Assembly (NCBI RefSeq): GCF_001592265.1 | Contig: NZ_BCWP01000028.1 | Coordinates: 1-48,490, forward strand | DNA length: 48,490 nucleotides | Direction of reading: 5' to 3' | DNA from: Curvibacter delicatus NBRC 14919 | Lineage (GTDB): Bacteria; Pseudomonadota; Gammaproteobacteria; Burkholderiales; Burkholderiaceae_C | In this document: positions 12,172 to 30,070 of the stretch, one piece after another | Layout: each line of letters begins with the position of its first letter | Numbering within the stretch: position 1 is the first letter of the stretch | The notes under the pieces: generated by a model | What the model saw: only the letters and a program-made list of their open reading frames with translations | The model's database searches: none | What the model was told of the DNA's origin: nothing | Made by a program: the position numbers and the translations under genes

Positions 12172-13789
12172 ATGAAGACTGCGTTGTTTTCTGTGCCGGG
12201 GTGGGCGCAGGGTGTTGCGTGCGCTGTGCTGGCCGTGCTGCCGGGGCTTGCTGCTGCCCAGGCGCCGGCCGGGCCGGGCCGGTCGGTGGCACTGGATGAA
12301 GTCATCCGCCAGACGCTGGCAAGAAATCCGTCCATCCGTTTGCAGGAACGACAGGTTGAGCTGGCACGGGGTGTTTTGCAGCAGAGCTCGGGGGCGTTTG
12401 ACCCCGCCGTGCAGTTGTCTGCCAACCGCAAGCGTGACAACCAGCCTTTGAACGAGGCCAACCGGGCGACCTACACCGCCAACTATGGCCGGCTGGCCGG
12501 CGGTGCGGTCAGTGAGCTCCAGGCCGATTCCCGGTCGGCCGCCATTTCCCTCGACAAGAACCTTGCGCAATGGCGTGATCCTGTCCACGTCGGTTTCCTC
12601 CACCCGCAGTGAGGGGTCGACCAATACCTTCAACCGGTGGGAGCCGCAAAACCTCGGGCTGATCAGTTTCAGCCTGACCATTCCGTTGTTGCGCAATGCC
12701 GGTTTGGCTGCGGCCACCGGCGAGCGCGCCAACCAGATGGAGTGGCAGGCCAGCCAGCAGGACCTGCGGCAAGTGGTGGCCAAGAATGTATTGAGCGCGG
12801 CCAACGCCTACTGGAGCCTGCTGGCAGCCGGGAAAAACCTGGCCATCGCGCGTGAGGGCGAAGCCAGCATGCACAAGCTGCTGGAAGACACCCGCAAGCT
12901 GATCGCTGCCGATGAGTTGCCAGCGGCCGAGGTCAACCTGATTCAGGCGTCCTTGGCCGACCGGCGTTCGGCCAGGCTGGCGGCAGAGACGGGCCTGTTG
13001 CAGGCCCGTCAGGCCTTGGGCAACCTGATGGGCCTGACCTATTCGGAGATCGTCGAGCTGGAGGCAGCAGGTGATTTCCCGCCGCTGCCGCAAGACATCC
13101 CCTCGCAGGTCAGCGTCAGTGCCCGTGTTCAGGATCAGGTACTGGCGCAGCGCCCCGACCTGATGGCAGCCCGTCTGCGTCAGGAGATGGCGCAGGCCTT
13201 GATGGATGTTGCACGCAGCAATCTGCGCCCGCAGCTCAACCTCACCCTGGGTGGCGGGGTGGCGGGCATTTCGGAAGGGTCGGCGACAAGCAATTACTAC
13301 CGGGCGCTCAGCGAGAACACGGCAACGCCCAATGCGTCCGTGGCGCTGACCTACCAATGGGCGTTCGGCAACAACGCAGCGGAAGGCGCGCTGGCACAGC
13401 GCGCCGCTGCTTACGAGCAGTCCGTCATCAACTACAACAGCCTGGTCCGAACGGTTAGCCTGGCCGTGGAGGCCACTTTCTCCGGCCTGATTCGCAATGC
13501 CTGGCAGCTCAAGGCTTCCACCGAATCGGTTGCGATCTATCGCCTGAGCCTCGAAAACGAAAAAACCAAGAACCGGCTGGGGACATCCACCATCCTCAAT
13601 GTGCTCACCGTGAACGACAGCCTGCGCAATGCCCGCCTGGCCCAGGTCAGCAACCATCTCAACTACCTCACGTCCCTGGCCACGCTGGGTTACGAGATGG
13701 GGGTGCTCATCGGGGAGGCGGCAGGGGAGAACACGGTCGATCTGGCCCGGCTTTTCGACCTGTCGTGGGCTGCTGGCGTGGCCCGATAA
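12172..13789 (+). pseudogene. TolC-family outer membrane channel, frameshifted
   Basis: Outer membrane efflux channel that would complete the export machine. Signal peptide MKTALFSV...GLAAAQA is followed by two TolC repeats (ALDEVIRQTLARNPSI; QVLAQRPDLMAARLRQEMAQ). The reading frame breaks near 12563: the upstream frame runs on to a stop at 12612, and the downstream frame is open to 13789. Removing one T of the CCTT at 12561-12564 restores ...KNLRNGVILSTSV..., giving a continuous 538-residue protein. Thus one extra base is present, either a sequence error or a real inactivation. Everything else about the gene is intact, and it lies 15 bases before the HlyD gene. The start is uncertain (ATG 12163 or 12172, TTG 12112). 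Confidence 0.85.
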
Positions 13790-13804: not shown

Positions 13805-15070
13805 ATGCAGGAACGGCAAGGTATTTTTCGCAAGTCATCGTTGGACCGACTGGCATCACCCGAGCAGTTGGATTCCCTGATCCGGGTGACGTCACCGCGT
13901 GCCTGGTTGGCTCTGGCGGCCATCGGTGGCCTGTTGTTGACCGCCTTGTTATGGGGCATCTTCGGCAGCATCCCGAGCAAGGTGCGCGGCTCCTGCATCC
14001 TGATTCGTCCCGGCGGCGTGGATGAGATCGTTGCGCCGGGCAATGGTTGGGTCAGCGACATCTCTGTCGAGGCTGGCGACATGGTGCGGCACGGGCAGAT
14101 GATTGCCCGGGTGGAGCGCAGCACCAGCATGGACCAGATCAAGAGCGCCGAAGCCAAACTGCATGAACTCAGGGCGCGGCAGGAGCAGGTCAAGTTGATC
14201 AACAGCCGCAGCACGGCCGAACAGGGTGCCTACCTGGCCGATTCGGAGCGCGGGTTGCGGGCCAAGATCGCCACGGCTGAAGAGCAGGTCCGGACGCTGG
14301 AGGGCAAGATCAGGAATCAGGAGCTCCTGCTGGAACAGGGGCTGATCACGCGCCAGACGCTCTTGAACAGCCGCCTGGAGTGGTCAACGGCGCGCCAATC
14401 GATTGACGCGTTTCAAAATGAAATCCGCCAGATCGGCGTACGTCGTCTGGAGTCCCGCAAGCAAACAGACACCGAGCAGAGCACCCTGGCGATTCAGCTC
14501 AACGAAGCTGAGCGCAATCTGGCCAGCCTGATGCGCAGCAGTGATCAGTCCTCCCTGGTCTTCAGCCCGTTCAGTGGTCGTGTGCTGGAGATCAAGCTGG
14601 CGGAAGGCAGCCCCGTCAATGCCGGCACCTCCATTCTCACCCTTGAGCAAACCGGGGCCAGCGTCAGCGACCTGGAGGCCGTGGTCTACATCGCGCCGCT
14701 CGATGGCAAGAAGGTCAAGACCAACATGGATGTGCAGATCGCGCCCTCGACGGTCCGGCAGGAAGAGTTCGGGTTGATGGTCGGCAAGGTGAAGTCGGTG
14801 GCCGATTTCCCATCCTCGACCGAGGGCATGCAACGCGTCCTCAGGAACCCGCAGCTCGTGCAGCAACTGGCGGCGGGGGCGGCGCCGATCGCCGTCCAAG
14901 CGGATCTGACGCCGAGTGCCACAACTGTCAGCGGCTACAAATGGACTTCGCCGAAAGGCCCGGACACCCGCATCGAAAGCGGCACGCTTTGCTCGGCCAC
15001 CATCACGGTCAGCAACCGCCGCCCCATCAGTCTGGTCATTCCCATCCTGCGCGACAACCTGGGCATCTGA
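13805..15070 (+). CDS. HlyD-family membrane fusion protein, NHLM-type bacteriocin export
   Basis: Periplasmic adaptor of 421 residues. It has a short cytoplasmic N-terminus, one transmembrane helix (about residues 37-58, WLALAAIGGLLLTALLWGIF), a biotinyl-lipoyl-like half (GNGWVSDISVEAGDMVRHGQ), a long coiled-coil hairpin (about 105-240), then the second lipoyl half (FSPFSGRVLEIKLAEGSPV). This is the form annotated as NHLM bacteriocin system secretion protein (TIGR03794 by memory). It bridges the ABC exporters and the TolC channel. It lies three bases before the peptidase ABC gene. Confidence 0.9.
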   Translation: MQERQGIFRKSSLDRLASPEQLDSLIRVTSPRAWLALAAIGGLLLTALLWGIFGSIPSKVRGSCILIRPGGVDEIVAPGNGWVSDISVEAGDMVRHGQMIARVERSTSMDQIKSAEAKLHELRARQEQVKLINSRSTAEQGAYLADSERGLRAKIATAEEQVRTLEGKIRNQELLLEQGLITRQTLLNSRLEWSTARQSIDAFQNEIRQIGVRRLESRKQTDTEQSTLAIQLNEAERNLASLMRSSDQSSLVFSPFSGRVLEIKLAEGSPVNAGTSILTLEQTGASVSDLEAVVYIAPLDGKKVKTNMDVQIAPSTVRQEEFGLMVGKVKSVADFPSSTEGMQRVLRNPQLVQQLAAGAAPIAVQADLTPSATTVSGYKWTSPKGPDTRIESGTLCSATITVSNRRPISLVIPILRDNLGI

Positions 15071-15073
15071 TCC

Positions 15074-17275
15074 ATGACGAGCGACCTGCGCACCCCACCA
15101 TCAGCCTGTTGGCGTGAACGCACGCCAACGGTGCTGCAAATGGAAGCCGTCGAATGTGGGGCGGCGGCGCTGGCCATCGTCATGGGCTATCACCGCAAGT
15201 TTGTCCCGTTGGAGGAATTGCGCCAGGTGTGTGGCGTTTCCCGGGATGGCAGCAAGGCCAGCAATGTGGTCAAGGCGGCACGCACCTATGGCTTTGAAGC
15301 CAGGGGCTATCGTTACGAGCCGTCCGAAGTGCTGGCGTTGCGCCAGCCCGTGATTGTTTTCTGGAACTTCAACCACTTCCTGGTGGTGGAGGGGGTGAGC
15401 AAGGCTGGCGTTCATCTCAACGATCCCGCTACAGGTCCGCGCACCGTCTCGCCCGAGGAATTTGACCAGGGGTTTACCGGCGTCGCTCTGCAGATCACGC
15501 CGGGCCCGGACTTCAAGCCGGAAGGCCAGCCCGACAGCATTCTCTCCGGCCTGCGAAAGCGCCTGCCTTTGCGCGAGCCGGCCTTGCTGTACCTGGTCAT
15601 CGCCGGCTTGCTGCTGGTGCTGCCGGGCCTGGTGTTGCCGGTGTTTGCCAAGGTGTTCATCGACGAATACCTGATCGGTCGGATGGACAGCTGGATCAAG
15701 CCCTTGTTGGTGGGCATGGCGGTCACCATGGTCTTGCAAGGTGTCCTGACCTGGTTGCAGCGCTATTACCTGGCACGGTTTCACGCCAAGCTGGCGATGG
15801 CGACCTCCAGCCAGTTTCTCTGGCATGTGTTGCGCCTGCCGGTGGTCTTTTACGCCCAGCGTTCGGCGGGGGACATCAGTGGCCGGGTCGGCATCAACAA
15901 CCGAGTGGCCGAACTCATGACCGGCGAGTTGGCAACGACTTTGCTCAACCTCGTTGTGCTGATCTTCTATGCGGCCTTGATGCTGTCCTACGACGTGTTG
16001 CTGACGCTGGTCGGCGTGGGTGTCGCCGCCATCAACATCGTGGTGCTCCAGCGCATGGCGAGGCAGCGCAAGGATGTGAACCAGAAGCTCGCCAACGACC
16101 ACGGCAAGCTGTTGGGCACCTCCATGAACGGCCTGCAGATGATCGAGACCCTGAAGGCCTCGGGTACCGAGTCGGACTTCTTCGCGAAGTGGGCGGGCCA
16201 CCATGCCAAGGTGGTCAACGGCATGCAGGCCGCGGGGGGGCAAGGCGTGCTGCGGGTCGGCGTTCCGCTGCTGCTGAGCACGTTGAACAATGTGCTCATT
16301 CTCTCGTTGGGTGGTTTGCGCGTGATGGAGGGCGCGTTGACCATGGGGGCGCTGGTGGCGTTCCAGAGCCTGATGGCCAGTTTTCTGCAGCCAGTGAATC
16401 AGTTGGTGGCCCTGGGCGCCAGCATCCAGGAGATGGAAGGCGACATGAAGCGGCTTGATGATGTGCTCAAGTACGCGCCGGAGTCCGATGGCACGCAGAC
16501 CGGCGAGGCCGCATCCGGGGTTGCCGTGGACCGGCTCCAGGGCGCGGTGGAGCTGAGAAACATCAGTTTTGGCTACAGCAAACTGGAGCCGCCGCTGCTG
16601 GAGAACTTCAATCTGACCCTGCGCCCCGGTGCCCGCGTGGCTCTGGTGGGGGCATCGGGTTGCGGCAAGTCCACGGTATCGCGCTTGGTCATGGGGCTTT
16701 ACGAACCCTGGAGCGGAGAGATCCTCTTCGACGGCCGGCCACGGCACCAGTGGCCGCGCGCCACCCTGGTCAACTCCTTGTCGATGGTGAGCCAGGAGAT
16801 CGCGCTTTTTGAAGGCGGCGTGCGTGACAACCTGAGCCTCTGGGACGACACCCTGCCCGAGGCGGAGTTGATCCGCGCGGCCCAGGATGCCTGCATCCAT
16901 GATGTCCTGGTGACGCGCCCCGGCGGTTACGAAAGTCCCGTCCTGGAAGGTGGTGTCAATTTCAGCGGCGGGCAGCGCCAGCGTCTGGAAATTGCCCGGG
17001 CGCTGGCCATCAATCCCCGCATCCTGGTGCTGGACGAGGCGACCAGTGCCCTCGATCCGCTTACCGAACAGCAGATCGACGACAACCTGCGGCGGCGCGG
17101 CTGCACGTGCCTGATCGTCGCCCATCGTCTGAGCACGATCCGGGATTGCGACGAGATCATCGTGCTGGACCGCGGGCGGGTGGTGCAGCGCGGCACGCAC
17201 GAGGACATGCGTGCCGTGCCGGGTCCCTATGCCGAGCTGATGCAGGCAGGAGAGGAGGCAGGTCATGCCCTCTGA
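15074..17275 (+). CDS. NHLP-family export ABC transporter with C39 peptidase domain
   Basis: Peptidase/permease/ATPase of 733 residues. The N-terminal C39 domain has catalytic Cys28 (EAVECGAAAL), His101 (NFNHFLVVEG) and Asp117 (NDPATGPR), so it should cleave leader peptides after a double-glycine type site. Six transmembrane segments span about residues 175-440. The ATPase has Walker A GASGCGKST, signature FSGGQRQRLEIARAL and Walker B ILVLDEATSALD. All catalytic residues are present. This is the NHLM ABC1 type (TIGR03796 by memory), used for Nif11 and nitrile-hydratase-leader precursors. It overlaps the next gene by 11 bases. Confidence 0.93.
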   Translation: MTSDLRTPPSACWRERTPTVLQMEAVECGAAALAIVMGYHRKFVPLEELRQVCGVSRDGSKASNVVKAARTYGFEARGYRYEPSEVLALRQPVIVFWNFNHFLVVEGVSKAGVHLNDPATGPRTVSPEEFDQGFTGVALQITPGPDFKPEGQPDSILSGLRKRLPLREPALLYLVIAGLLLVLPGLVLPVFAKVFIDEYLIGRMDSWIKPLLVGMAVTMVLQGVLTWLQRYYLARFHAKLAMATSSQFLWHVLRLPVVFYAQRSAGDISGRVGINNRVAELMTGELATTLLNLVVLIFYAALMLSYDVLLTLVGVGVAAINIVVLQRMARQRKDVNQKLANDHGKLLGTSMNGLQMIETLKASGTESDFFAKWAGHHAKVVNGMQAAGGQGVLRVGVPLLLSTLNNVLILSLGGLRVMEGALTMGALVAFQSLMASFLQPVNQLVALGASIQEMEGDMKRLDDVLKYAPESDGTQTGEAASGVAVDRLQGAVELRNISFGYSKLEPPLLENFNLTLRPGARVALVGASGCGKSTVSRLVMGLYEPWSGEILFDGRPRHQWPRATLVNSLSMVSQEIALFEGGVRDNLSLWDDTLPEAELIRAAQDACIHDVLVTRPGGYESPVLEGGVNFSGGQRQRLEIARALAINPRILVLDEATSALDPLTEQQIDDNLRRRGCTCLIVAHRLSTIRDCDEIIVLDRGRVVQRGTHEDMRAVPGPYAELMQAGEEAGHAL

Positions 17276-20168
17276 AACAGGCGTGCCGGACATCCTGTTC
17301 GCGGTGCATGGCACAGCCGCGCGGGCGCGGGCCGGGCAGCCGCTGCAGCTGGAAGGCAGTGGCCATGTCTGGAAGGTCGAGGCCGGTGCCGTCGATCTGT
17401 TTTTGTCCCGGCTGGAAGACGGGCAGCCTGCTGGTGCCCTGTTCCCGCTGGGGCGTCGGGTGGCGGGCCAGTTGCTTTGGGGGCTGCCGGTGCGGCGCCG
17501 CTGTCAGGACTGGTGTCTCGTGGCCTTGGGCAATGGCGACAGTCGTTTGATCGCCGTGCCGGGCTCGGTGCTCGTGCTGCCGGAGGGTTCGGTACTCGAT
17601 GGCGCCTGGCTGGCGGCTGCCTTGGTGGACTGGTGCGACTTTCTGCGCGCGCCTTTGCCAGGAGGGCTGCCAGAAGGTCTCCCCTTGCCTGAGGCGGGTG
17701 GCAGTGCGCATGCCGACGCGGGGAGCACCTACTTGGGCCGAGCAGACACGGTCTGGGTGAAGCTGCTGGCAGGGGCGTGGGACTTTCTTGGCGCACCGGA
17801 GATGCCGCTGACGACAGGGCTGGTGCCGTTGTCACGCACCGGTTGGCTGGTCTGCAGGGAGGCCGGACAGTTGTGCACGGCAGAGGCCGAGGCGTTGACG
17901 CCAACGGCCTTGCTGGCAGGCGTGGATGCGTTGCAAGACGGTCTGTGGTCGGCCCTGGTTCGGCAGCAGCAAGTGCAGGCGCAAGAAGAGGTGTTGCGCC
18001 TGCAGCAGAAGGCGCATCGGGAAACGGACAAGCTGGGGCAGGCGCTGGGGCATCTGGCGGCGGTCCTGGCGCGTGGGGATCGCTGGGCTGTGGGCGAGGA
18101 TGGCGGCAAGGATGCGCTCTGGGCGGCCTGCTGCCGTCTGGGACGGGTGGCCGGTATCGAGTTCCGGCCGCCGCCACCTGGCCCGGCCGATGCCGCACGC
18201 GACGTGCTGGCTGAAATTGCCGAGGCCAGCCGCGTGCGCCGCCGCCGCGTGACCCTGGCGGGCTCTTGGTGGCAAGAGGACGGCCTGCCTTTGCTGTCTT
18301 TCCGCAAGCAGGATGGGCAGCCCGTGGTGCTGGCATTCTTCGCCGGCGCTTATCACCTGCTGCCTTCGTCCGGAGGGGCATCCGTTCGTGTGGATGCCGC
18401 CCTGGCGGCAGAGCTGGAGGATTTCGCCTGGGTCTTCTACCGGGGCCTGGGGGAGACCTGCCGCGGCCTGGTGGAGATGCTGCGCTTTGGCAGCCTGGGG
18501 TGCTGGCGGGATTACCTCATGGTGATCGCCATGGGAATTTCAATCGGCCTTATCGGCATGGTGACGCCCATGGCCACGGGCATGCTGTTCGATTCCGTGA
18601 TTCCCGGAGCTGATAAAAATCAGCTGCTGCAACTGACATTGGCCTTGCTGGCCGCAGCCTTCGCCACGAGCCTGTTCGATGCAGCGCGCGGCTTTGCCGT
18701 GTTGCGTGTCGAGGGGCGCCTGGACCTTGCCGTCCAGTCGGCCATCTGGGACCGGCTGATGCGCTTGCCCTCCACCTTCTTCCGCGATTATTCGGCAGGC
18801 GACCTGGCCATGCGCGCCAACGGCGTCCACAGCATCCTGCAACTGATTTCCGGCACGACACTGCAGACCCTGATGGGCGCCGTGTTCTCCTCTTTCAATC
18901 TGGCGCTGCTGTTCTATTACAACGTCAAGCTGGGGCTGCTGGCTTTGGGGCTGGTGGGCGTGGCCGTGTTCGTTACCGTACTTGCCGGTTTTCTGCGCTT
19001 GCGCCATGAGCGTCATCTGGCCTCCATGGAAGGCCGGATATCCGGGCAGGTGCTGCAGTTGCTCAGTGGCATCGCGAAGTTGCGTGCTGCGGGGGCAGAA
19101 ACACGGGCCTTCTTCAACTGGGCCATGAACTACGGGCAGCAGCAGGAACACACGTTCCGTGCGCGCATGGTCGGCAATGTGCTGGATGTCTTCAACAGCA
19201 TCTTTCCCACGCTGGCCAATCTGCTCATTTTTGGCTTGGTTGCTTTTTATCTCACCGACGACAAGAGCTTCAGCACCGGCCATTTCATGGCGTTCAATGC
19301 CGCGTTCGGAGGTTTTCTGGGCGCCATGCTGGCAGCGACCGGGGCCGTGATGGCGATTCTCAACGTGGTACCGATCTATGAGCGGGCGCGTCCCATCCTG
19401 CAGACACCGATGGAAATCACCGAGGCCAAGGCCCATCCGGGCGTGTTGAGCGGCGATATTGAGATCAGCCATCTTTCCTTCAGCTATACCGCCGACGGCC
19501 CTGTCATTCTCAAGGACATCAACCTTCATGTCCGGGCCGGTGAGTTCGTTGCCATCGTGGGGGCATCGGGTTCGGGCAAGTCCACCTTGCTGCGCCTGCT
19601 GTTGGGGTTCGAGCAGCCGACGTTGGGGGCGCTCTATTACGACAGCCAGGACATGTCCGGGCTCGATCTGGGTGCTTTGCGTCGCCAGCTGGGCGTGGTC
19701 CTGCAGAACGGTCAGCTCATCTCGGGTGATATTTTCGGCAACATCGTGGGCTCCGCACCGCTCACGCTGGACGATGCCTGGGCCGCCGCCGAGCAGGCCG
19801 GTCTGGCCGCCGACATCCGCGAAATGCCCATGGGCATGCACACCATGGTGAGCGACGGTGGTTCGACCCTCTCCGGTGGCCAACGTCAGCGCCTGATGAT
19901 CGCGCGTGCCATCGTGCATCGGCCGCGCATTCTTTTCTTTGACGAGGCGACCAGTGCCCTGGACAACCAGACGCAGGCGGTGGTGAGCGACAGCATGGCG
20001 CAGTTGCGGGCCACCCGGGTCGTCATTGCGCATCGCCTGAGCACGATTGTCCATGCCGACCGGATTCTGGTCATGGACGGGGGGCAGATTGTCCAGAGCG
20101 GCACGTATGCGGAGCTGCTGGCAACGGACGGACTGTTTGCCGATCTGGCCCGGCGGCAAATCATTTGA
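17265..20168 (+). CDS. NHLP-family export ABC transporter permease/ATPase, second subunit
   Basis: Protein of 967 residues with a large N-terminal region (about 1-410) without a C39 peptidase, then six transmembrane segments (from IAMGISIGLIGMVTPMATGM, near 425) and an ATPase with GASGSGKST, LSGGQRQRLMIARAI and ILFFDEATSALD. This is the NHLM ABC2 type (TIGR03797 by memory), thought to pair with the peptidase-bearing exporter. The role of the long N-terminal part is unknown. The start at 17265 overlaps the stop of ABC1, indicating coupled translation. Confidence 0.92.
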   Translation: MPSETGVPDILFAVHGTAARARAGQPLQLEGSGHVWKVEAGAVDLFLSRLEDGQPAGALFPLGRRVAGQLLWGLPVRRRCQDWCLVALGNGDSRLIAVPGSVLVLPEGSVLDGAWLAAALVDWCDFLRAPLPGGLPEGLPLPEAGGSAHADAGSTYLGRADTVWVKLLAGAWDFLGAPEMPLTTGLVPLSRTGWLVCREAGQLCTAEAEALTPTALLAGVDALQDGLWSALVRQQQVQAQEEVLRLQQKAHRETDKLGQALGHLAAVLARGDRWAVGEDGGKDALWAACCRLGRVAGIEFRPPPPGPADAARDVLAEIAEASRVRRRRVTLAGSWWQEDGLPLLSFRKQDGQPVVLAFFAGAYHLLPSSGGASVRVDAALAAELEDFAWVFYRGLGETCRGLVEMLRFGSLGCWRDYLMVIAMGISIGLIGMVTPMATGMLFDSVIPGADKNQLLQLTLALLAAAFATSLFDAARGFAVLRVEGRLDLAVQSAIWDRLMRLPSTFFRDYSAGDLAMRANGVHSILQLISGTTLQTLMGAVFSSFNLALLFYYNVKLGLLALGLVGVAVFVTVLAGFLRLRHERHLASMEGRISGQVLQLLSGIAKLRAAGAETRAFFNWAMNYGQQQEHTFRARMVGNVLDVFNSIFPTLANLLIFGLVAFYLTDDKSFSTGHFMAFNAAFGGFLGAMLAATGAVMAILNVVPIYERARPILQTPMEITEAKAHPGVLSGDIEISHLSFSYTADGPVILKDINLHVRAGEFVAIVGASGSGKSTLLRLLLGFEQPTLGALYYDSQDMSGLDLGALRRQLGVVLQNGQLISGDIFGNIVGSAPLTLDDAWAAAEQAGLAADIREMPMGMHTMVSDGGSTLSGGQRQRLMIARAIVHRPRILFFDEATSALDNQTQAVVSDSMAQLRATRVVIAHRLSTIVHADRILVMDGGQIVQSGTYAELLATDGLFADLARRQII

Positions 20169-20173
20169 GACGG

Positions 20174-20296
20174 ATGCCAACTATGCACCACAAAACATTC
20201 TTGCCGATGGCGACAACCTGGGGAGGCCGGCTTGCCGGGCAGGCGGTGTGGCACCGCATGACATCGATGTTGATGCAGGGAGGGGCGGCACCATGA
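20174..20296 (+). CDS. Possible 40-residue ORF filling the only gap of the export operon
   Basis: An open frame of 40 residues begins five bases after the stop of the second ABC gene and ends ATGA-overlapped with the start of the next gene. The product has no Cys, four Trp/His-rich stretches and ends MLMQGGAAP. The geometry at both ends is that of a translationally coupled gene, but the ribosome binding site (GAGACGG) is weak and GC-rich DNA gives open frames by chance. I assign no function. It may simply be spacer. Confidence 0.25.
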   Translation: MPTMHHKTFLPMATTWGGRLAGQAVWHRMTSMLMQGGAAP

Positions 20297-21429
20297 AGAT
20301 ATGGCCATGGCTTCTGGTCGTTGCCGGACTGCTCGGCGGCTGCGACAACTGGGGCGACCCGGCGACGGCGCGGGCCAGACGGGCTGCCTCCGCCGACGGT
20401 GAGATCGTGATCGGTGCGGTCTGGCCCTGGGGTGGGCACAAGGGGAGCTTGTGGCAGGGCATCGAGCTGGCTGCTGAAGAGATCAATGCGCAGGGCGGCA
20501 TTCTGGGGCGACCCGTGCGCATCATCAAGGAAGACGATGAGGCCTCGCTGGCCAAGGGGCGCCTGATCGCACAGCAGTTTGCCGAGAACCGCGACATGGT
20601 GGCGGTCATCGGTCACCTCAATTCCTACATCGCCTTGCCCGCCTCGTCCATGTACCAGGCGGCAGGCTTGCTGTACCTGACGCCCGGCGCCTCCGATTAC
20701 CAGATCAACCTGCAAGGCCACAAGCTGGTCTTCCGATCGTCGCCAAGCAACCGCAGTCTGGGTTCCCGCATGGCCGACTTCATGGCCGCGCGTGGTTATC
20801 GCCGGGTGGCCATCGCCTATGTCAAGGACAAGACCAGCCAGGGCATGGCGAACTATTTTGAGCAGCGTGCCCGGGAGCTGGGGATGACCATTGTCGATCG
20901 GCGCTCCTACGCCATCAGTGCCGAGGACTTCGGGCAGCTGACCCATACCTGGAAGGACCTCTATCAATTCGACGCCATCTTCCTCGCGGGCAACATGCCG
21001 GTGGCCGGCCAATTCATCAAGGCGGTGCGATCGTTCGGCATGACCATGCCCATCGTCGGTGGTGATGGCATGGACACGCCGCAGCTGCTGCAGCTGGGGG
21101 CGCTGGCGGAGGGTGTCGTCGTTCCGGAGATCTACGACGCAGATACCCGCCGCCCCGCGGTCAGCCACTTCGAGACCCTGTTCCAGAAAAAATATGGTCG
21201 CGCCGCCGACACCTTTGCGGCACAGGGGTATGACGCACTTCAGCTGGTGGCGCAAGCCATGCGGCAGGCGCGCGGGACAGTGCCCGACGATGTGGCACGT
21301 GCGTTGCATGCCACACGCACATGGCAAGGGGTCACCGGAGAAGTCTCTTTTGACGACTTGGGGGACATGCCCGAACGCAAGATCGGCCAGAAGATTGTCC
21401 GCGACGGTCGTTTCGTCAGCTTGCCATGA
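20293..21429 (+). CDS. ABC-type substrate-binding lipoprotein, LivK/Peripla_BP_6 type
   Basis: Periplasmic binding protein of 378 residues with a lipoprotein signal (LVVAGLLGGCDNW; Cys18 lipidated) and two lobes of the branched-chain amino-acid/amide receptor family. Blocks such as IGAVWPWGGHKGSLWQGIELA, AEEINAQGGILGRPV and VAVIGHLNSY are typical (each short). GGAGG precedes the ATG. No Liv permease or ATPase gene is in the cluster, so it may act as a sensor or ligand-presenting protein rather than in uptake; that is inference. Its stop overlaps the next gene region. Confidence 0.88.
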   Translation: MKIWPWLLVVAGLLGGCDNWGDPATARARRAASADGEIVIGAVWPWGGHKGSLWQGIELAAEEINAQGGILGRPVRIIKEDDEASLAKGRLIAQQFAENRDMVAVIGHLNSYIALPASSMYQAAGLLYLTPGASDYQINLQGHKLVFRSSPSNRSLGSRMADFMAARGYRRVAIAYVKDKTSQGMANYFEQRARELGMTIVDRRSYAISAEDFGQLTHTWKDLYQFDAIFLAGNMPVAGQFIKAVRSFGMTMPIVGGDGMDTPQLLQLGALAEGVVVPEIYDADTRRPAVSHFETLFQKKYGRAADTFAAQGYDALQLVAQAMRQARGTVPDDVARALHATRTWQGVTGEVSFDDLGDMPERKIGQKIVRDGRFVSLP

Positions 21430-21437
21430 GGTCCGCC

Positions 21438-22268
21438 ATGAAGATCAGATATGTCGTTCGAGCCGCCTGGGTGTGCGGTCTGGCACTGCTGATGAGCGCC
21501 GCAGCCGCGCAGGGCTTGCCCGCGAGTGCCCTGCCGGTCGATATCCAGCGCATCGTGACGCGGGGTGAGTTGCGTGTGGCGATGCCGTCTTTCGATTCTC
21601 CGCCCTTCTTCTACGAGGGGCCGACGGGCTTGGAAGGCATCGATGCCGAGATTGCGAACGGGGTGGCCCAGGTGCTGGGTGTTCGCCTGAAAGTGCTGCG
21701 CCAGGCCGGCAGTTTCAACGAGGTGGTCGAGTGTGTGGCGCGCGGCGAAGTGGACATGGCCGTCGGCAAGTTGTCGCGTACCCTGGCACGCGCGCGATAC
21801 GTACGCTTCTCCGATCCTTACTCCACGAGCCGGCATGCCGTTCTTCTGAACCGGGTGGCTTTTGCGCGTCTTGCCCGGGGACGGGAGTTTGGCGATGTCA
21901 TCCGCCATTTCGACGGGACGCTGGGTGTGATTCAGGGCTCCTCTTTTGCCGATCAGGCGCTCCGCAGCTTTCCCCAGGCGCGTCTGGTGGCCTACAGGCG
22001 CTGGGAAGAGCTGTTGGAGGCGCTGACGCGGGGGGAGGTGATCGCCGCCTATCGGGATGAGTCCGAGATGCAGCGACTCTTCCAGCAGAGCCCAGCCCTG
22101 TCGCTCAGTTTGCGGGTCGTGGCTTTCACGGATACCCAAGACAGCCTGAGCGTGGCGCTGCCCTATCAGTCGCAGCAGCTACTGGCGTTGGTGAATCTTT
22201 ATCTGGCGCAGCACCGGCCGTCGATGAACGCCAAACTTGAATCCCGAGAACTGAGGTCCCGGCCATGA
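21438..22268 (+). CDS. Extracellular solute-binding protein family 3 (amino-acid binding)
   Basis: Protein of 276 residues with a cleavable signal peptide (to about residue 24, MSAAAAQG) and a SBP_bac_3 fold: ELRVAMPSFDSPPFFYE near the start, IDAEIANGVAQVLGV, and the GEVDMAVGKLSRT hinge. The family binds polar amino acids such as Glu, Asp or Gln. GAGG lies seven bases before the ATG at 21438; an ATG at 21426 overlaps the previous stop but lacks a site. As with its neighbour, no permease partner is present. Its stop overlaps the symporter start as ATGA. Confidence 0.88.
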   Translation: MKIRYVVRAAWVCGLALLMSAAAAQGLPASALPVDIQRIVTRGELRVAMPSFDSPPFFYEGPTGLEGIDAEIANGVAQVLGVRLKVLRQAGSFNEVVECVARGEVDMAVGKLSRTLARARYVRFSDPYSTSRHAVLLNRVAFARLARGREFGDVIRHFDGTLGVIQGSSFADQALRSFPQARLVAYRRWEELLEALTRGEVIAAYRDESEMQRLFQQSPALSLSLRVVAFTDTQDSLSVALPYQSQQLLALVNLYLAQHRPSMNAKLESRELRSRP

Positions 22269-24356: not shown

Positions 24357-24713
24357 ATGCACCTCTCATCCGAAATCCTTCAAGCGCTGCGCAAGCTGCT
24401 TGAAGAGGACTCAGCCCTGCTGGAACTGCTGCGCCAGACTCCTGATGTCGTGCAGGGCGCGGCGTTGCTGTGTCAGGCCGCCCAGCAGGCCGGGCTGGAT
24501 GTCCGCCAGGACGATCTGCTCAAGTACTTTGCCGCGCAGGCCCCGACAGTGGCCAATCAGGCCCTGGATGACGGGCAATTGGACAAAGTGGCCGGCGGCA
24601 TGAGTTATGCCGAGCGGGAGATCGCCTCTCTTTTCTCCCTCGGGTTGATTCGCCTGCGTCCGGAGTCTGGTGCTGGCAAGAAAACGAAAGTGACCGTTGG
24701 GCGTCCGCTGTAA
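24357..24713 (+). CDS. Nif11-like precursor peptide (putative export substrate)
   Basis: Small protein of 118 residues. Residues 1-80 look like a Nif11-type leader: an amphipathic N-terminal helix (LRKLLEEDSALLELLRQ), an Ala/Gln-rich middle (AAQQAGLDVRQDDL) and a cleavage motif ALDDGQLDKVAGG with the double Gly at 80-81. The remaining 37 residues (82-118) form a basic, Cys-free core ending in KVTVGRPL. The gene is last of the export operon, with TTGGAGA six bases before ATG. Cleavage after GG by the C39 domain encoded upstream is inferred. No modification enzyme is present nearby, so the core may be exported unmodified. Confidence 0.85.
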   Translation: MHLSSEILQALRKLLEEDSALLELLRQTPDVVQGAALLCQAAQQAGLDVRQDDLLKYFAAQAPTVANQALDDGQLDKVAGGMSYAEREIASLFSLGLIRLRPESGAGKKTKVTVGRPL

Positions 24714-24826
24714 GCAGGTGCTCGGGAGAATCTGCGAGAACACACGGCGCCGTTGTATTGGGTGCCTTGGTACTGTCTTGCCGAATCAGGCGTACCACAG
24801 CACGTGCCAGGGCGGGATCCGGATGG

Positions 24827-25057
24827 CTACGGACCGACGGTGATCGTGCCGTCGAGATCGCCCGTATAGGGCTGCCCGGGTGGGATAACCACGCGCCCCT
24901 CCATCGGGTAGCGAGGCGGTTGCGCCGGGGGCCAGATGCTGCCACCTCCAGATACCTGTTCCAGCTGCGCATCAGGCAGTGCGGCAGACGGGCTGGCGTC
25001 GGTGTCGGTCATGGTGGGTGCCGGTGACGTTGGGGGACGATGATCAGAAGAGGTCAT
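24827..25057 (-). CDS. Candidate precursor peptide with GG leader and Pro-rich core
   Basis: Small protein of 76 residues, unusual composition. The first 38 residues end in ALPDAQLEQVSGG, matching the leader motif of the Nif11-like gene that faces it. The tail (39-76) is Pro/Gly-rich and Cys-free (SIWPPAQPPRYP, VIPPGQPYTGDLDG). The ribosome binding site is weak. It is convergent with the precursor gene at 24357 and downstream of the sigma-factor gene on the same strand. I know no family for the core. The motif match makes it a likely substrate of the same exporter. Confidence 0.65.
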   Translation of the reverse strand: MTSSDHRPPTSPAPTMTDTDASPSAALPDAQLEQVSGGGSIWPPAQPPRYPMEGRVVIPPGQPYTGDLDGTITVGP

Positions 25058-25259
25058 GGTGTGCTTTCATGTTTGCAGGGATGCCGAAAAAGCGGTTCCG
25101 CAGTCCATGAGTAACGTGGCATGAGGACAAGGTTCGCGCACGCTGCGGATGAGCACAGGCCTCGGGCGCTGTTCGTGCCAAGCCTGTCCAGATGAACTGT
25201 CCTGCCCGTTTGGCTGCCAATGGTCGACAGCCAGATGGCCCGCGCCCACGCCAGGCGCG

Positions 25260-25460
25260 TCAGTGAGGGTCCTGCGGTGGCGGAAAGCCCGGCCCGGCCG
25301 CGGCCAGCCACTCCAGATCGGCATCGTTCAGCATGCGGCTGCGGCCGGCCAAACGGGCCAGCACGCGCTCCACGGCGCCGGCCGGGGCTTGCTCGGATTG
25401 GTAATGCAAGGCCAGTTCGCTCAGGTGGCGATCCAGTTCATGCGCCTGCGGATGGGTCAT
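25260..25460 (-). CDS. Small protein downstream of the sigma factor; possible third precursor
   Basis: Protein of 66 residues, or 70 if the GTG at 25472 is used. Charged helical N-terminal part (HELDRHLSELALHYQSEQ), then MLNDADLEWLAAAG and a ten-residue Pro-rich tail PGFPPPQDPH. The segment before the tail aligns with the leader motifs of the other two small proteins, with AAAG in place of a double Gly. Alternatively it is a partner of the sigma factor encoded 97 bases upstream. It has no Cys/His zinc site as in zinc anti-sigma factors. No family is recognised. Confidence 0.6.
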   Translation of the reverse strand: MTHPQAHELDRHLSELALHYQSEQAPAGAVERVLARLAGRSRMLNDADLEWLAAAGPGFPPPQDPH

Positions 25461-25557
25461 TCCTGATTCCACGTTGCGGTTGGAGGTGGTGCCTTGTCAA
25501 ACCAAGGGCCTGCCCCATGAGTAACCCGAAAAGGGAAAAGGTTCCAATACAGTGCAT

Positions 25558-26124
25558 TCATGACATGTGCGTGAACATGTCTTCAGCCAATCTTTCCCGG
25601 GCGCGGCTCAAGCGGCTTTTGACCGTGCCCAGCGGGATTTTCAGGACGTTGGCAGCTTCCTCGAGGGCGAGATCTTCCAGCCTGACCAGGATCACGACTT
25701 CCCGCAGTTCCTCGGGCAGGCGGAAGATGGCGCGGTCCAGTTCCAGCAGCATTTGCTTGCTTCGGGCCAGCTCGGAGGGGTCCTCCGCCTGGGGCAGCAA
25801 GGATTCGAGGACGTTGTCTTCCGGCAACTCCACCTCCTTGCGGGACGCAGCGCGGTTGCAGTGGTTGCGGGCGATGTTGAGGGCGATGCCCAGGAGCCAG
25901 GTGGAAAACTTGGATTCACCGCGGAAGGTCTGAAGGCTGCGCCAGGCGCTGATGAAGGTTTCTTGCGTCAGCTCCTCCGCATCCTGAGGGTTGTGCACCG
26001 ATTTCAGGATGAAGCGCCAGACGTTGCTGTGAAACTCACGAACCAGGGCGGAAAAGGCGGCCTCGTCGCCAGCGCGGGCGCGCTCAACCCACTGTTTGAC
26101 GCGATACAACTGGATATCATTCAT
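25558..26124 (-). CDS. ECF-type RNA polymerase sigma factor
   Basis: RpoE-like sigma-70 factor of 188 residues. Region 2 is clear (FSALVREFHSNVWRFILKS, NPQDAEELTQETFISAWR), as is region 4 (LPEELREVVILVRLEDLALE, IPLGTVKSRLSRARERL). The ATG at 26124 gives a typical N-terminus; ATGs at 26151 and 26178 would add 9 or 18 residues. It heads a minus-strand unit containing the two small proteins at 25260 and 24827 and is divergent from the BTAD regulator, which suggests joint control of the export island. No classical anti-sigma gene is adjacent. Confidence 0.9.
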   Translation of the reverse strand: MNDIQLYRVKQWVERARAGDEAAFSALVREFHSNVWRFILKSVHNPQDAEELTQETFISAWRSLQTFRGESKFSTWLLGIALNIARNHCNRAASRKEVELPEDNVLESLLPQAEDPSELARSKQMLLELDRAIFRLPEELREVVILVRLEDLALEEAANVLKIPLGTVKSRLSRARERLAEDMFTHMS

Positions 26125-26247
26125 GGCAGCGACTACTTTCCCGTTAGACATGCGGCCGCAATTACCCGCACCGTTCATTGCCTGGTTAGATTTCTGGCCC
26201 CGCTCTGGCAGGGCTTCTCCCTTTGAAAATCCATCCTAAATTTCGAG

Positions 26248-26281: not shown

Positions 26282-29200
26282 ATGAATTCCCTGTTTGAAC
26301 CGCCGCCCAACGGGTTGGTCATGCGTTTCCTGGGCGGCTTTGCTGTCTCGCGCGGTGGCCTTGCCTTGGACGGGTTCGGCTATGACAAGACACGTGCCTT
26401 GCTGGCCTATCTGGCGCTGGAGTCAGGGGCGGGGCCGCACCATCGGGAAAAACTGGCGGATCTGCTGTGGCCCGAGGCGCCGGCCGAGACGGCGCGCGGC
26501 AACCTGCGCCGCACCTTGCACGACTTGCGCAAGACGCTGATGGCCGGGGGAGCGGGCGAAGATTTCTTCGTCACGAGCAAGAATCAGCTCGGATTTGATG
26601 GCGCCAGCCCTCACTGGTTGGATGTCGAGGCCTTCAGCCAGCCGGGACCGGTTTCCGAGGGAGCTGCCGATGAGCTGGAGCGCCTGGAGCAGCAATGGGC
26701 GCTGTACCGCGGGGGGCTTTTGCACGGTTTGAGCCTGCCGGATGCGCCGGATTTCGAAAATTGGCTGGAGGCGCGCCGTGAGGCGGTGCAGCGGCAGGCT
26801 TTGCCGTTGCTCAAGAGGTTGATCCAATGCCATGAACAGCATGGCCAGATCGCGCGTGCCATTGTCCTGCTGCACAAGGAAATCGAGCTGGAGCCCTGGG
26901 CCGAGGATGCGCATCGCCGGCTCATGCAGTTGCAGGCGCGCAATGGTCAGACCGCCGCCGCGCTGGCCCAGTTCGAGGTCTGTCGTGCGCTGCTGCAACG
27001 CGAACTGGGTTTGGAGCCCGAGCCGCAGACCCTGGCCCTGGCGCAGGCCATCCGCCGCGGCGAGCTGACGGCGCCGTCCTGGGTGCCGGCCCCTGTGCCG
27101 AACGTTGAACGCCGCCAGGTCTGTGTGCTTGTTTGCGACATCCAGGCCGCCCACGCGCTGCCATCGGAAGCCGCAGCGAACGTTGTGGCCGACAGCCACG
27201 GCAGCTGCATGAACATCATCAGCACACACGGGGGGCATGGCATCGCCTTGCACGCCGGCAAGATCCTGGCTTATTTTGGTTATCCGCAGGCGCAGGAACA
27301 TGCGCCCGTGAAGGTGTTGGAAGCAGCGTTGGAGATGGTCCGCTACGCGGCCGGAACCTCTGGCCTGAACATCCGGCTGGGAGCGCATTGCGGCTGGGTG
27401 GTGAACGACCAGCGCTTCAACCTGCCCGATGCGACGGGGCTGATTACCCAGCGTGCCGGCGCCTTGGCAGAGCAGGCGCCGTGGGGGGGCATCGCCGTCA
27501 GTCCCGAAATCGCACAGTTGGTGGAGGGCTATTTCTTGTTGAGCGATTTGCGCGAGACGAGCGGCTCGCTCCATCACCTGATCGAGGGTCGCAGCACGGC
27601 GCGTCACCGGTTGCAGGCGGCGGCCCATCGACTCACGCCGTTTGTCGGACGTGCGACCGAACTGCGGCTGCTACGCGCCCTGTGGGAGCGTACCCGCCAA
27701 GGTGGCAGCCAGGCGCTGCTGATCCGTGCCGAGGCCGGGATGGGCAAGTCCCGCCTGATCCAGATGCTGGAGCCGCAGGTGGCAAGTACCGGCGGCGCCT
27801 GGTGCTTGCTGCGTTGTCTGCCGGAATTCCAGCACACGCCGTACTATCCCCTGGTCGATTTCCTGCAGCACCTGCTGGACCAGTACGGTGGCGCAGAGGC
27901 GGGTGGCGCCAGCCGTGGCCAGCGTTTGGCGCGCTGGCTGACGTCCTTGGACGATGCCTTGGCGGTTCATCTGCCGATGCTGGCCGAGCTGCTGCAGCTG
28001 CCCCAGGAAACGACGTCGTTGCCACTGTCGCCAAGCGACAAGAAACACCGCCTGGAAGGGGCTCTGCGGGATGTGTTCCTGTGTCTGGCGCAGCAACAGC
28101 CATTGTTGCTGCTGCTGGAAGACGTCCATTGGGCCGACGCCTCCACCCTGGAATGGGTTCAAGCCCTGTTGGCGCGGCCGGTGGCGCCTTGCCTGCTTTT
28201 GATGAGTGCCCGCCCCGAGTTCGAAGTCTTGCCTGGTCTCAAAACGCTGTCGTTGCCGGCCTTGTCGGACCGGCAGGCCGAGCGGCTGGTGCGCCAGACG
28301 GCCGGCGGCGCCGGCTGGGATGCCCGGGCCCTGAAAAGTATTTTGTTGCGGGCAGACGGCATCCCGCTCTACATCGAAGAGATGGCGCGCAGCCTGCAGG
28401 CCGATCTCCAGATGGAGATACCGGGCACGCTGTGGCACCTGTTGGCGGTGCGATTGGAGTCGGTTGGCGAAGCCCGGCGCCTGGCGCAACAGGCGGCCGC
28501 CATCGGCCGTGATTTCAGTCTTGAGCTGCTGGAGGCTCTATGGGATGGCCCCGGCGATCGGCTGCCGGTTTATCTGGACCGGCTTGGCAAGGCCGGTTTG
28601 ATCCAGCCGCAGGACCGGGGGCATTACCGCTTCAAGCATGCCTTGTTCCAGGATTCTGCGTACCAGACCTTGCCGCTGAATGAGCGCAAAAACATCCATG
28701 GCCGCTTGGCCCGGTTGTTCCAGGGGCCGTTCCAGCATCTGGCCAAAAACAGCCCTGAGCGTCTGGCTCAGCATCTCACCATTGCGGGCGAATCACTGCC
28801 GGCGGCGGCGGCCTGGCTGGCGGCGGGCCGCATGGCTGCCAGCCGGTCGGCCAACCAGGATGCCGTCTTCCATTTCGAATCCGGGCTGGCCCAGTTGCGG
28901 GGGCTGGAGGTGCCTGGCGCCGATGGGCTCGAACTCTCGCTTCAGGCCGCCTTGGGTACCACCTTGGTGGCGATGAAAGGCTACGGGGCGGAAGAGGCCA
29001 AGGTGTGTTTTGCCCGTTCTCTGGAGTTGAGCCGGACGACGGAAGATGACACCGAGTTGTTCCCGGTCACTTGGGGCTTGTGGCTGGGCGGCCGGTCGTG
29101 CACGCCGGAGGCCTTTCCGCTGGAGTTCGCCGAAAAGCTGGAGCGCATAGCCCAGGCTTCGGGCGAGCCGGCGCATGCCATGCAGGTCCACTACGCCTAT

Positions 29201-30070
29201 GGCAACAACCTGTTCTGGATGGCGCGCTATGCAGAAGCGTATGCGCACCTGGAGAAGGCCGTGGCGATTGGCCGTGGCCTGTCCTCCTTTGATCTTGTCC
29301 GCACCTATGGCGAGGACACCGGGATCTCTTCGCTTTCTTTCCAGGCCTGGATCCATTGGATACAGGGACGGCCTGATACGGCTGTCGCGACGGCGCAGGC
29401 CGCCATTGCGGCGGCGCGCCAATTGGGGCATGCCCATACCCTGGGGTTTGCGCTGACCTTTGCGGCGGTTCTTTACCGGTTCATGAACATGCCGCAGCAA
29501 ACCGCCACGCTGGGACAAGAGTTGCGGGAGCTTTCACTGCGGCATGGGCTGTCGTTATGGCAGGCCGCGGCGGGTGCCGTCTCGGGATGGGCGGCCGTCA
29601 TGCTCGGCCGGCCGGAGGGCATGGAGATCATTCAGCAGAGTGTCGAGGCCTCCCGCAAGGCCATGCTGGTGGTCGAGGGCACATTTCTGGCTTTTCAGGT
29701 GGATGCGTTGCATCACCTGGGCCAGCATGAGGCCTGTGCTGTCGCGGCAGAGGACGCCATCAGGCGTTGCGAGAGTCGTCTGGACATCTATTTCCTGCCT
29801 GAGTTCTTGCGTCTGCGCGGCGCGGCGCTTCTCGGTCTGGCGGGCGGGCATTGTGCCGAAGGAGAGCGCTGTCTGGAACAGGCGTTGGCGTTGGCCGGCC
29901 AGCAAGGTGCCAAAAGCCTGGAACTGCGTGCCGCCGTGACCCTGGGCCAATTTGCCACTCAGCCAACGGCAAGGCAGATGCTCCGGAATCGGATCACGGA
30001 AATTCTCACGAGCTGCCCGGAGCTGGCTTCAGGTGCCGAAGGTCGGCTTGCGCGCGAACGCTTCAGCTGA
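26282..30070 (+). CDS. BTAD/SARP-type regulator with cyclase-like, AAA and TPR regions
   Basis: Very large transcription regulator of 1262 residues. Order: OmpR/SARP winged helix (about 13-115, LLAYLALESG...REKLADLLWP), bacterial transcriptional activation domain (about 140-260, ending LQRELGLEPEPQT), a class III nucleotide-cyclase-like domain (about 278-440), an AAA ATPase with Walker A AEAGMGKSR (about 483-491) and Walker B LLLLLEDVHWAD (about 608-619), and a TPR-rich C-terminal half. In the cyclase-like part one metal Asp (CDIQAA) remains, but the usual Gly-Asp before the YFGYP block is replaced by HAGK, so it is probably inactive and a ligand or protein sensor. It is divergent from the sigma-factor gene and is likely the activator of the island. 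Confidence 0.88.
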   Translation: MNSLFEPPPNGLVMRFLGGFAVSRGGLALDGFGYDKTRALLAYLALESGAGPHHREKLADLLWPEAPAETARGNLRRTLHDLRKTLMAGGAGEDFFVTSKNQLGFDGASPHWLDVEAFSQPGPVSEGAADELERLEQQWALYRGGLLHGLSLPDAPDFENWLEARREAVQRQALPLLKRLIQCHEQHGQIARAIVLLHKEIELEPWAEDAHRRLMQLQARNGQTAAALAQFEVCRALLQRELGLEPEPQTLALAQAIRRGELTAPSWVPAPVPNVERRQVCVLVCDIQAAHALPSEAAANVVADSHGSCMNIISTHGGHGIALHAGKILAYFGYPQAQEHAPVKVLEAALEMVRYAAGTSGLNIRLGAHCGWVVNDQRFNLPDATGLITQRAGALAEQAPWGGIAVSPEIAQLVEGYFLLSDLRETSGSLHHLIEGRSTARHRLQAAAHRLTPFVGRATELRLLRALWERTRQGGSQALLIRAEAGMGKSRLIQMLEPQVASTGGAWCLLRCLPEFQHTPYYPLVDFLQHLLDQYGGAEAGGASRGQRLARWLTSLDDALAVHLPMLAELLQLPQETTSLPLSPSDKKHRLEGALRDVFLCLAQQQPLLLLLEDVHWADASTLEWVQALLARPVAPCLLLMSARPEFEVLPGLKTLSLPALSDRQAERLVRQTAGGAGWDARALKSILLRADGIPLYIEEMARSLQADLQMEIPGTLWHLLAVRLESVGEARRLAQQAAAIGRDFSLELLEALWDGPGDRLPVYLDRLGKAGLIQPQDRGHYRFKHALFQDSAYQTLPLNERKNIHGRLARLFQGPFQHLAKNSPERLAQHLTIAGESLPAAAAWLAAGRMAASRSANQDAVFHFESGLAQLRGLEVPGADGLELSLQAALGTTLVAMKGYGAEEAKVCFARSLELSRTTEDDTELFPVTWGLWLGGRSCTPEAFPLEFAEKLERIAQASGEPAHAMQVHYAYGNNLFWMARYAEAYAHLEKAVAIGRGLSSFDLVRTYGEDTGISSLSFQAWIHWIQGRPDTAVATAQAAIAAARQLGHAHTLGFALTFAAVLYRFMNMPQQTATLGQELRELSLRHGLSLWQAAAGAVSGWAAVMLGRPEGMEIIQQSVEASRKAMLVVEGTFLAFQVDALHHLGQHEACAVAAEDAIRRCESRLDIYFLPEFLRLRGAALLGLAGGHCAEGERCLEQALALAGQQGAKSLELRAAVTLGQFATQPTARQMLRNRITEILTSCPELASGAEGRLARERFS

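Follow-up and report, generated by a model that had tools for sequence, protein, structure and literature searches.

A C39 leader-like motif on the putative anti-sigma partner of an ECF sigma factor beside an NHLM export cluster of Curvibacter delicatus

The stretch of Curvibacter delicatus NBRC 14919 DNA analysed here (48,490 nucleotides, hereafter the window) carries the genes listed in Table 1. On the plus strand these run from the TolC-like gene through HlyD, ABC1, ABC2, two substrate-binding proteins, a symporter and an amino acid racemase to a small Nif11-like gene, while the genes for an ECF sigma factor, p66 and p76 converge on this cluster from the minus strand, p76 being the last of that series. 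The p66 gene lies 97 bp downstream of the sigma gene; an alternative GTG start at 25472 would give a product of 70 aa. The NHLM export system is complete, with HlyD, ABC1 with its C39 domain, and ABC2 all above the NCBIfam cut-offs, and the sequence of ABC1 retains the predicted C39 catalytic residues C28, H101 and D117 (in ECGA, NHFL and NDPA), which bears out the C39 exporter that a first-pass annotation of this DNA had placed in the cluster; neither of the two C39 matches falls in ABC2. The racemase scored 220 bits against the cut-off of 190 of the cysteate racemase model. No peptide-modifying enzyme was found among the cluster genes covered by the family scans, which left aside the TolC-like gene, the regulator gene (26282) and the remainder of the window. 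The symporter gene is read in two frames (22265-23589; ORFs 22265-23008 and 22789-23589), which denotes either a frameshift or a sequencing error, and the combination of two substrate-binding proteins with a dicarboxylate/glutamate-type symporter (20134-24260 in the window) recurs in other NHLM loci (L012, L020, L214 and L215).

Table 1. Features of the export cluster and of the genes converging on it, with positions in the window
Feature	Position	Strand	Basis or remark
TolC-like outer membrane factor (presumed label)	12485..13789	+	48% to protein at equivalent place in the Rugamonas rubra locus (L007)
NHLM HlyD adaptor	13805..15070	+	TIGR03794 369.1 bits vs cut-off 156.2
NHLM ABC1: C39 peptidase / permease / ATPase	15074..17275	+	PF03412 121.6 bits; TIGR03796 1102.9 vs 853.3
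NHLM ABC2 permease / ATPase	17265..20168	+	TIGR03797 911.9 bits vs 709.4
Lone substrate-binding protein, Peripla_BP_6 type	20134..21429	+	family match; true start further in
Second substrate-binding protein, SBP_bac_3 type	21426..22268	+	family match
Nif11-like precursor, 118 aa	24357..24713	+	leader end LDDGQLDKVAGG, basic 37-residue tail
p76, putative 76-aa precursor	24827..25057	-	38-residue tail rich in Pro and Gly after motif LPDAQLEQVSGG
p66, putative sigma partner; LNDADLEWLAAA-G close to C-terminus as leader-like motif	25260..25460	-	ORF, homologues
ECF sigma factor	25558..26178	-	Sigma70_r2 59.4 bits, Sigma70_r4_2 49.9 bits
Large gene, presumably regulator-like, divergent from sigma gene	26282..30070	+	ORF

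The first-pass annotation had drawn attention to three small proteins sharing one leader and cleavage motif. The open reading frames for the 118-, 76- and 66-residue proteins are indeed there, and the three motif strings align without gaps, with GG, GG and AAAG followed by cysteine-free tails that are, respectively, 37, 38 and 10 residues long. The strength of the motif is nonetheless unequal. Scored with a 12-position PSSM built from 61 leaders of other NHLM loci, the Nif11-like protein, p76 and p66 reached 24.1, 27.3 and 6.4 bits. Among 2517 ORFs between 40 and 150 aa long, spurious ones included, which were drawn from 400 kb (20 stretches) of the 3.76-Mb genome, these scores were attained by 1, 1 and 2, and with longer ORFs added by 1, 1 and 12 of 3296. 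The sole small ORF to outscore the 118- and 76-residue proteins, L180, also encodes a leader peptide, one of the NHLP precursor type. The motifs of the Nif11-like protein and p76 are thus far beyond chance, whereas that of p66 taken alone is unusual yet within chance; its retention in the two homologues described below adds to its weight. L180 itself lies elsewhere in the genome, unlinked to the window (19374-19706 on C3, minus strand; TIGR03793 76.7 bits vs 50.9); its cut site is VAAGAGG, also with Ala at -2, and this peptide is likely a further substrate of the window's exporter.

Both the Nif11-like protein and p76 possess L-12, L-7, V-4 and GG, features which support their reading as ordinary double-glycine substrates of the NHLM C39 exporter of the cluster. 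The former shows 28% identity to a Nif11-like protein of the Rugamonas rubra locus (E 1e-4). It has no Pfam match (PF07862), and in the comparison with leader families proposed in the first-pass annotation it remained at 18.1 bits with TIGR03798, under the cut-off of 32.3; because the Nif11 family cut-offs were not reached we call it Nif11-like only. In the same comparison the 43 residues that precede the motif in p66 matched no leader family. For p76 no homologue was found in 99 relatives, nor in a search of 6 genomes (best E 0.045, rejected), and its codon positions show no bias (GC 0.68/0.63/0.68), so that the case for p76 as a real gene rests on its motif. The trio was not found in related genomes, each of its members being found in 0/99 other relatives, and therefore the comparison was made through the exporter.

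Scanning with ABC2 left 80 loci, many of them ending at contig ends, 16 of which contain an ECF sigma gene according to the sigma profile. The gene following sigma encodes a p66 homologue in two of these, from Rugamonas rubra (L007, 36% identity) and Noviherbaspirillum suwonense (L043, 47%). In the window and in both of these loci p66 lies directly 3' of the ECF sigma gene, and all three are NHLM loci. A p66 profile run on 369 genomes of the class recovered its own genome alone, with no match at E<0.001 among the first-look candidates (up to 16 per genome) scored in the 368 others, and in a set of 11 genomes it rose above chance only in those of L007 and L043. No p66 was found in the Azonexus genome with the closest exporter match (L006; best E 0.03), where the stretch ends 146 bases after ABC2, nor in G415. 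In G044 and G221, the only other genomes above the ABC2 cut-off among 399, no p66 was seen, and no sigma gene was matched in the vicinity of the exporter. Proteins matching the p66 profile through the helix string alone were rejected as homologues. In another NHLM locus (L123) the gene after sigma encodes a Nif11 precursor and not p66. The product of 3600-4145 in L123, 181 aa long, bears a Nif11 leader (TIGR03798 33.7 bits vs 32.3) after about 90 residues, and an alignment of its N-terminus with that of p66 was equalled by 8 of 2000 shuffles, which is suggestive only; it is possibly, by its sequence, a fusion of sigma partner and leader, and it has no homologue in 10 other genomes of its family.

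The homologues place the conservation of p66 in the motif. The first-pass annotation had named, as evidence that would speak against it, homologues in which the motif had been lost and the rest retained; the opposite was observed, 8 of the 13 positions 44-56 (L44, D46, L49, W51, L52, A54, A55 and G56) being invariant in the three sequences as against 9 of the 43 before them. Leucines thus occupy -12, -7 and -4 relative to a site after A55. In the LahT150 co-crystal a hydrophobic groove of the C39 domain holds the corresponding leader residues Leu-12, Leu-7 and Val-4 (PMC6363468); L44, L49 and L52 match them, which supports the reading of this segment as a C39 tag. The residues at -2/-1 are AA in p66 and both homologues, not GG, GA or GS, the usual cut-site motifs in that account, where Ala at -2 is not listed (PMC6363468), and the three proteins score 6.2-7.5 with the PSSM. 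The motif ends 11-15 residues ahead of the C-terminus, as in the short-tailed tagged proteins described below, and the tails of the three sequences are short and variable. Three helices are predicted for p66, the last over the motif (pLDDT 70, three sequences), the 43 residues ahead of it being predicted as mostly helical. The NCBIfam model 'putative anti-sigmaE' matches p66 far below its cut-off (E 0.007 in the window, 0.029 in L043 and none in L007) over residues 5-46, mostly ahead of the motif. No FlgM domain was found in p66 (Pfam, E <= 1), in its two homologues and three Bacillota proteins (E <= 5) or in five further ones (E <= 1).

Most of the sigma-bearing loci of the ABC2 scan present a more canonical picture. 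In 10/16 (L015, L016, L017, L018, L019, L023, L025, L027, L030 and L035) the gene after sigma encodes a protein of 80-113 residues with a canonical motif, e.g. LEDDELDLVAGG, and a short charged tail, whereas L048, L067, L071 and L083 have no such partner after sigma. A profile of the ten partners matched 22/113 genomes of one class, and one of 20 members matched 19/398 genomes of the phylum. After removal of duplicates, identical by their first 60 residues, and of L166, an NHLP precursor matched by its motif, 41 distinct proteins were found to share the N-terminal anti-sigma domain; L241, untagged and of the membrane type, fell below the E cut-off and stands outside this count. As many as 33 of the 41 lie directly after an ECF sigma gene, with gaps of -11 to +147 bases if counted up to where the domain match begins, and 25 of these 33 have a C39 leader motif at their end, which is of the GG type in 18 and has Ala at -2 in 7 (L156, whose upstream sigma is a 45-residue fragment only, is counted in both figures). 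Defined as a 19-residue hydropathy over 1.8, a membrane span is found in none of the 25 tagged sigma-adjacent proteins and in 7 of the 8 untagged ones, L230 being the exception. Tagged proteins amount overall to 33/41 (26 GG and 7 with Ala at -2), eight of them without an ECF sigma gene directly upstream. In Bacillota, a tagged partner after an ECF sigma gene is a canonical arrangement.

The nature of the shared domain is indicated by the untagged L163/L213, which follows an ECF sigma gene and in which the anti-sigma domain is combined with DUF4367 and a membrane span. A profile of the domain from which both the motif and L163 had been left out gave 52.2 bits with the L163 N-terminus against 8.3 for the best of 2000 shuffles, and the L163/L213 sigma falls within the clade of the tagged proteins' sigmas (support 98/95 and 95/83). 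Membrane proteins of this kind beside ECF sigma genes are anti-sigma factors, an established arrangement. These comparisons support the presence of an anti-sigma domain in the Bacillota tagged proteins, 25 of the 33 both sharing the domain with a membrane anti-sigma protein and lying beside an ECF sigma gene. As expected of a leader motif, theirs can be aligned with Nif11 precursors over 20 columns (92%); the fold predicted for the family (mean pLDDT 69) has no PDB match at E 0.001, and the best PDB match by sequence is a Nif11 protein (E 0.011).

L158, L159, L162, L164, L165, L167, L168, L223 and L224 are tagged and have tails of 31-40 residues with Cys pairs resembling a zinc ribbon, partly lost in L165, and in group A2 an Asn occupies +2 in 10/10 tails. 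In L230 (1084-1710, minus strand) the anti-sigma domain is joined to another stretch, with neither tag nor clear membrane span. L235-L238 (E 6e-5 to 5e-4) were not counted as partners, as no ECF sigma was found in the fetched flanks; these small proteins end in a motif like LSWDELDNLAAAG and a short tail containing Pro in 4/4, and an HlyD-like match lies near L236 and L237.

Tag and exporter tend to occur together. Among the 113 genomes of the class 27 have an NHLM ABC1 at E 1e-200 (26 above the cut-off) and 20 have tagged proteins, a set from which G885 and G887 were left out; 17 of the 20 belong to the 27 (Fisher p 1.1e-10, kinship not corrected). The three tagged genomes outside the 27 are G886, with ABC2 beside the tagged gene, G860, where the tagged gene ends a 6.9-kb contig, and G864, in which no ABC1 was seen; conversely, 10 of the 27 NHLM genomes gave no tagged protein. 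HlyD and ABC1 lie in the stretch in 13/20 extended loci, L201 and L211 end at contig ends, and L203, L205, L212 and L216 have no HlyD/ABC1 within about 10 kb, the genomes of the last three carrying ABC1 elsewhere. No exporter occurs in the untagged locus L213, nor does its genome, G885, have an NHLM ABC1 at E 1e-200. Close to the gene set of the window are L214 and L215, which read sigma, tagged protein (VAAG), two substrate-binding proteins, symporter, HlyD, ABC1 and ABC2, with a tag of the AA type. As a control, the next genes after sigma were scored for eight other ECF sigmas (L016 second copy, L129, L189, L205 second copy, L203, L192, L186 and L083) together with L071, L048, L067 and untagged L213, and their best PSSM score was <0 in 12/12; by comparison, sixteen partners of the GG type reached 15.6-28.8 and three Bacillota proteins of the AA type 11.5-21.9, above the 6.2-7.5 of p66 and its homologues. 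In this test L212 had no gene within reach, and the tagged genes of L208 and L217 lay beyond the range looked at.

How p66 relates to this family was approached by profile alignment. It aligned over 33 columns with the seven AA-type tagged proteins (82%, P 1.1e-5) and with all 33 tagged proteins (42%, P 2.6e-4), and over 14 columns with seven Nif11 precursors (15%, P 1.8e-3), i.e. better to AA-type tagged proteins than to Nif11 precursors; once the motif was removed, p66 showed no significant homology to the Bacillota anti-sigma domain. In the sigma tree, whose bootstrap had not settled, the window groups with L007, L043 and L123 in a separate clade (99/88), distinct from that of Bacillota, so that the link between exporter and sigma probably arose twice. 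By sequence comparison, p66 would be either a very diverged cousin of the Bacillota proteins or the same design arisen a second time, and an independent double origin, if true, would be the stronger evidence for function.

We lean, cautiously, towards the reading of p66 as a leader-tagged anti-sigma factor through which the C39 exporter would report its free capacity to sigma, with the Nif11-like protein and p76 as its cargo. Starting from the position after sigma, the tag, the Bacillota anti-sigma domain and the co-occurrence with the exporter, all read from the sequences, we infer sigma binding, recognition by C39, cleavage or docking and an effect on transcription. p66 is most likely the anti-sigma partner of the adjoining ECF sigma; it would hold sigma off, and its C-terminal helix would imitate a C39 leader. 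Once an exporter is assembled and free of cargo leaders, its C39 domain could take the tail helix of the partner by Leu -12, Leu -7 and Leu/Val -4, cutting off the last 8-40 residues in the GG type of Bacillota, and only docking or cutting slowly in the AA type represented by p66. Capture of the tail would loosen the partner from sigma, and the freed sigma would turn on more cargo or exporter genes, until cargo leaders competing for C39 damp the response. Cargo leaders and anti-sigma factor would thereby compete for one protease groove, a means for the cell to measure free export capacity by its export protease. Against this reading weigh the lack of significant homology ahead of the motif in p66, the low score and the AA at its cut site, the separate clade of the sigmas, the genomes with related exporters in which no p66 was seen, the Nif11 precursor after sigma in L123, the 10 NHLM genomes that gave no tagged protein, the eight tagged proteins with no sigma directly upstream and the Nif11 protein as best PDB match of the tagged family. 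It also counts against it that what a C39 exporter normally transports is the portion behind GG; the anti-sigma domain would thus stay in the cytoplasm with sigma, whose release would then need a further step, degradation or a conformational change. C-termini of the LAA kind are recognised by cell proteases, and it is tempting to speculate that a cut after AAA in p66 would leave one of these. More tentatively, and as a generalisation that we consider quite possible though somewhat less likely than not, the C39 peptidase may act as the signal receiver of an ECF sigma pathway. Its anti-sigma factors would bear a leader tag in two sigma lineages, those of Bacillota and betaproteobacteria, a tag that could be cleaved if of the GG type and would dock or be cut slowly if of the AA type, and that in Bacillota would take the place of the membrane anchor of related factors.

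An ordinary sigma partner or anti-sigma factor whose L-x-D-x-x-L-x-W-L is a helix cap for sigma binding, unrelated to the exporter, could account for several of these observations. p66 has no GG, its 6.4 bits are reached by 12/3296 ORFs, the weak anti-sigmaE matches cover residues 5-46, mostly before the motif, and other proteins encoded next to NHLM loci have an L-S-D-x-D-x-E-W-L string close to their start, so that the motif of p66 could be convergent for another reason. This explanation is nevertheless unlikely, if deserving serious weight, in view of the three C39 anchors invariant in 3/3 homologues, the distance of the motif from the C-terminus (11-15 residues, as in short-tailed tagged proteins), the alignment to AA-type tagged proteins and the confinement of p66 to three NHLM loci, none other appearing at E<0.001 among the first-look candidates (up to 16 per genome) scored in the 368 other class genomes.

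The first-pass annotation had proposed three export substrates, with the third as a possible sigma partner instead. Two of the three stand as precursors. For p66, a motif followed by a short tail, a gene series common with p76 and the small LAAAG proteins with Pro-containing tails and no sigma found adjoining (L236-L238) are what a third substrate would predict, its product being a Pro-rich peptide of 10-11 residues and its adjacency to sigma only operon history. Ala-Ala at the cut site, a place directly after sigma kept in 3/3 genomes and 43 pre-motif residues that match no leader family and are predicted as mostly helical (pLDDT 70, three sequences) make this improbable; as stated, we rejected it because p66 follows sigma in 3/3, lacks GG and aligns better to tagged proteins. 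Sigma partner was accordingly the better half of the alternative, but not as an either/or, for sigma partners in Bacillota themselves carry the full C39 leader motif. Still less probable, to the point of being far-fetched, is the release of a tail peptide as an outside pheromone or sensor ligand, the anti-sigma domain then serving as leader and the tail as signal: tails are conserved within groups (Asn +2 in 10/10 of A2, Cys-bearing tails of 31-40 residues elsewhere) and lone substrate-binding proteins are frequent in NHLM loci, but the tails of p66 are short and variable, with no receptor identified.

Parts of the leader-tagged anti-sigma reading have precedents, in that both export-coupled anti-sigma control (FlgM, PMC6337784) and an ECF sigma with a membrane-associated anti-sigma factor in a lantibiotic cluster (MibX/MibW, PMC6001450) are already known from these accounts. 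FlgM, the anti-sigma factor of flagellar FliA, is likewise a small protein whose level depends on the state of an export machine; there the flagellar type III machine secretes FlgM as such (PMC6337784), whereas in the present case a C39 ABC exporter would recognise a leader motif and would transport the tail at most. MibX and PspX of lantibiotic clusters resemble the present case as ECF sigmas in feed-forward control of a ribosomal peptide cluster, and MibX has an anti-sigma factor, MibW; as described there, MibW is membrane-associated and sigma is released after precursor export, whereas the tagged proteins have no membrane span and do have a C39 leader motif (PMC6001450). Nif11-like/NHLP leaders and their NHLM exporters share with our proteins the leader helix and the double-glycine site (Haft et al. 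2010, PMC2887384; PMC6363468), the word 'sigma' being absent from the main text of the former; those leaders carry peptide products, whereas the bearer of the motif in the present case is a probable transcription regulator. The DUF4367 membrane anti-sigma factor L163/L213 shares the N-terminal domain of the tagged proteins, is encoded immediately downstream of an ECF sigma gene from the clade of theirs, and differs by a membrane span and outer domain where the tagged proteins have the leader motif. No description of a leader-tagged anti-sigma factor was found in the open-access literature, judged by titles and abstracts.

If true, the leader-tagged anti-sigma reading would describe a new mode of sensing export capacity, one that needs no membrane-bound anti-sigma factor. 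Many peptide clusters are silent in the laboratory, and the link between exporter and sigma would offer a handle for activating them. Nor is a small protein a peptide precursor on the strength of its leader motif alone: in 25 loci the motif-bearing gene comes directly after that of an ECF sigma, and its product has a domain in common with a membrane anti-sigma protein.

Finally, proteins encoded in eleven NHLM loci (L032, L040, L041, L044, L055, L084, L116, L118, L120, L121 and L122) start with MRKVL followed by L-[STD]-D-x-D-x-[EDQ]-W-L. Labelled by eye, they look like cyclic-nucleotide-binding-domain proteins, and they are perhaps a second kind of exporter-linked regulator, or a case of plain helix capping.
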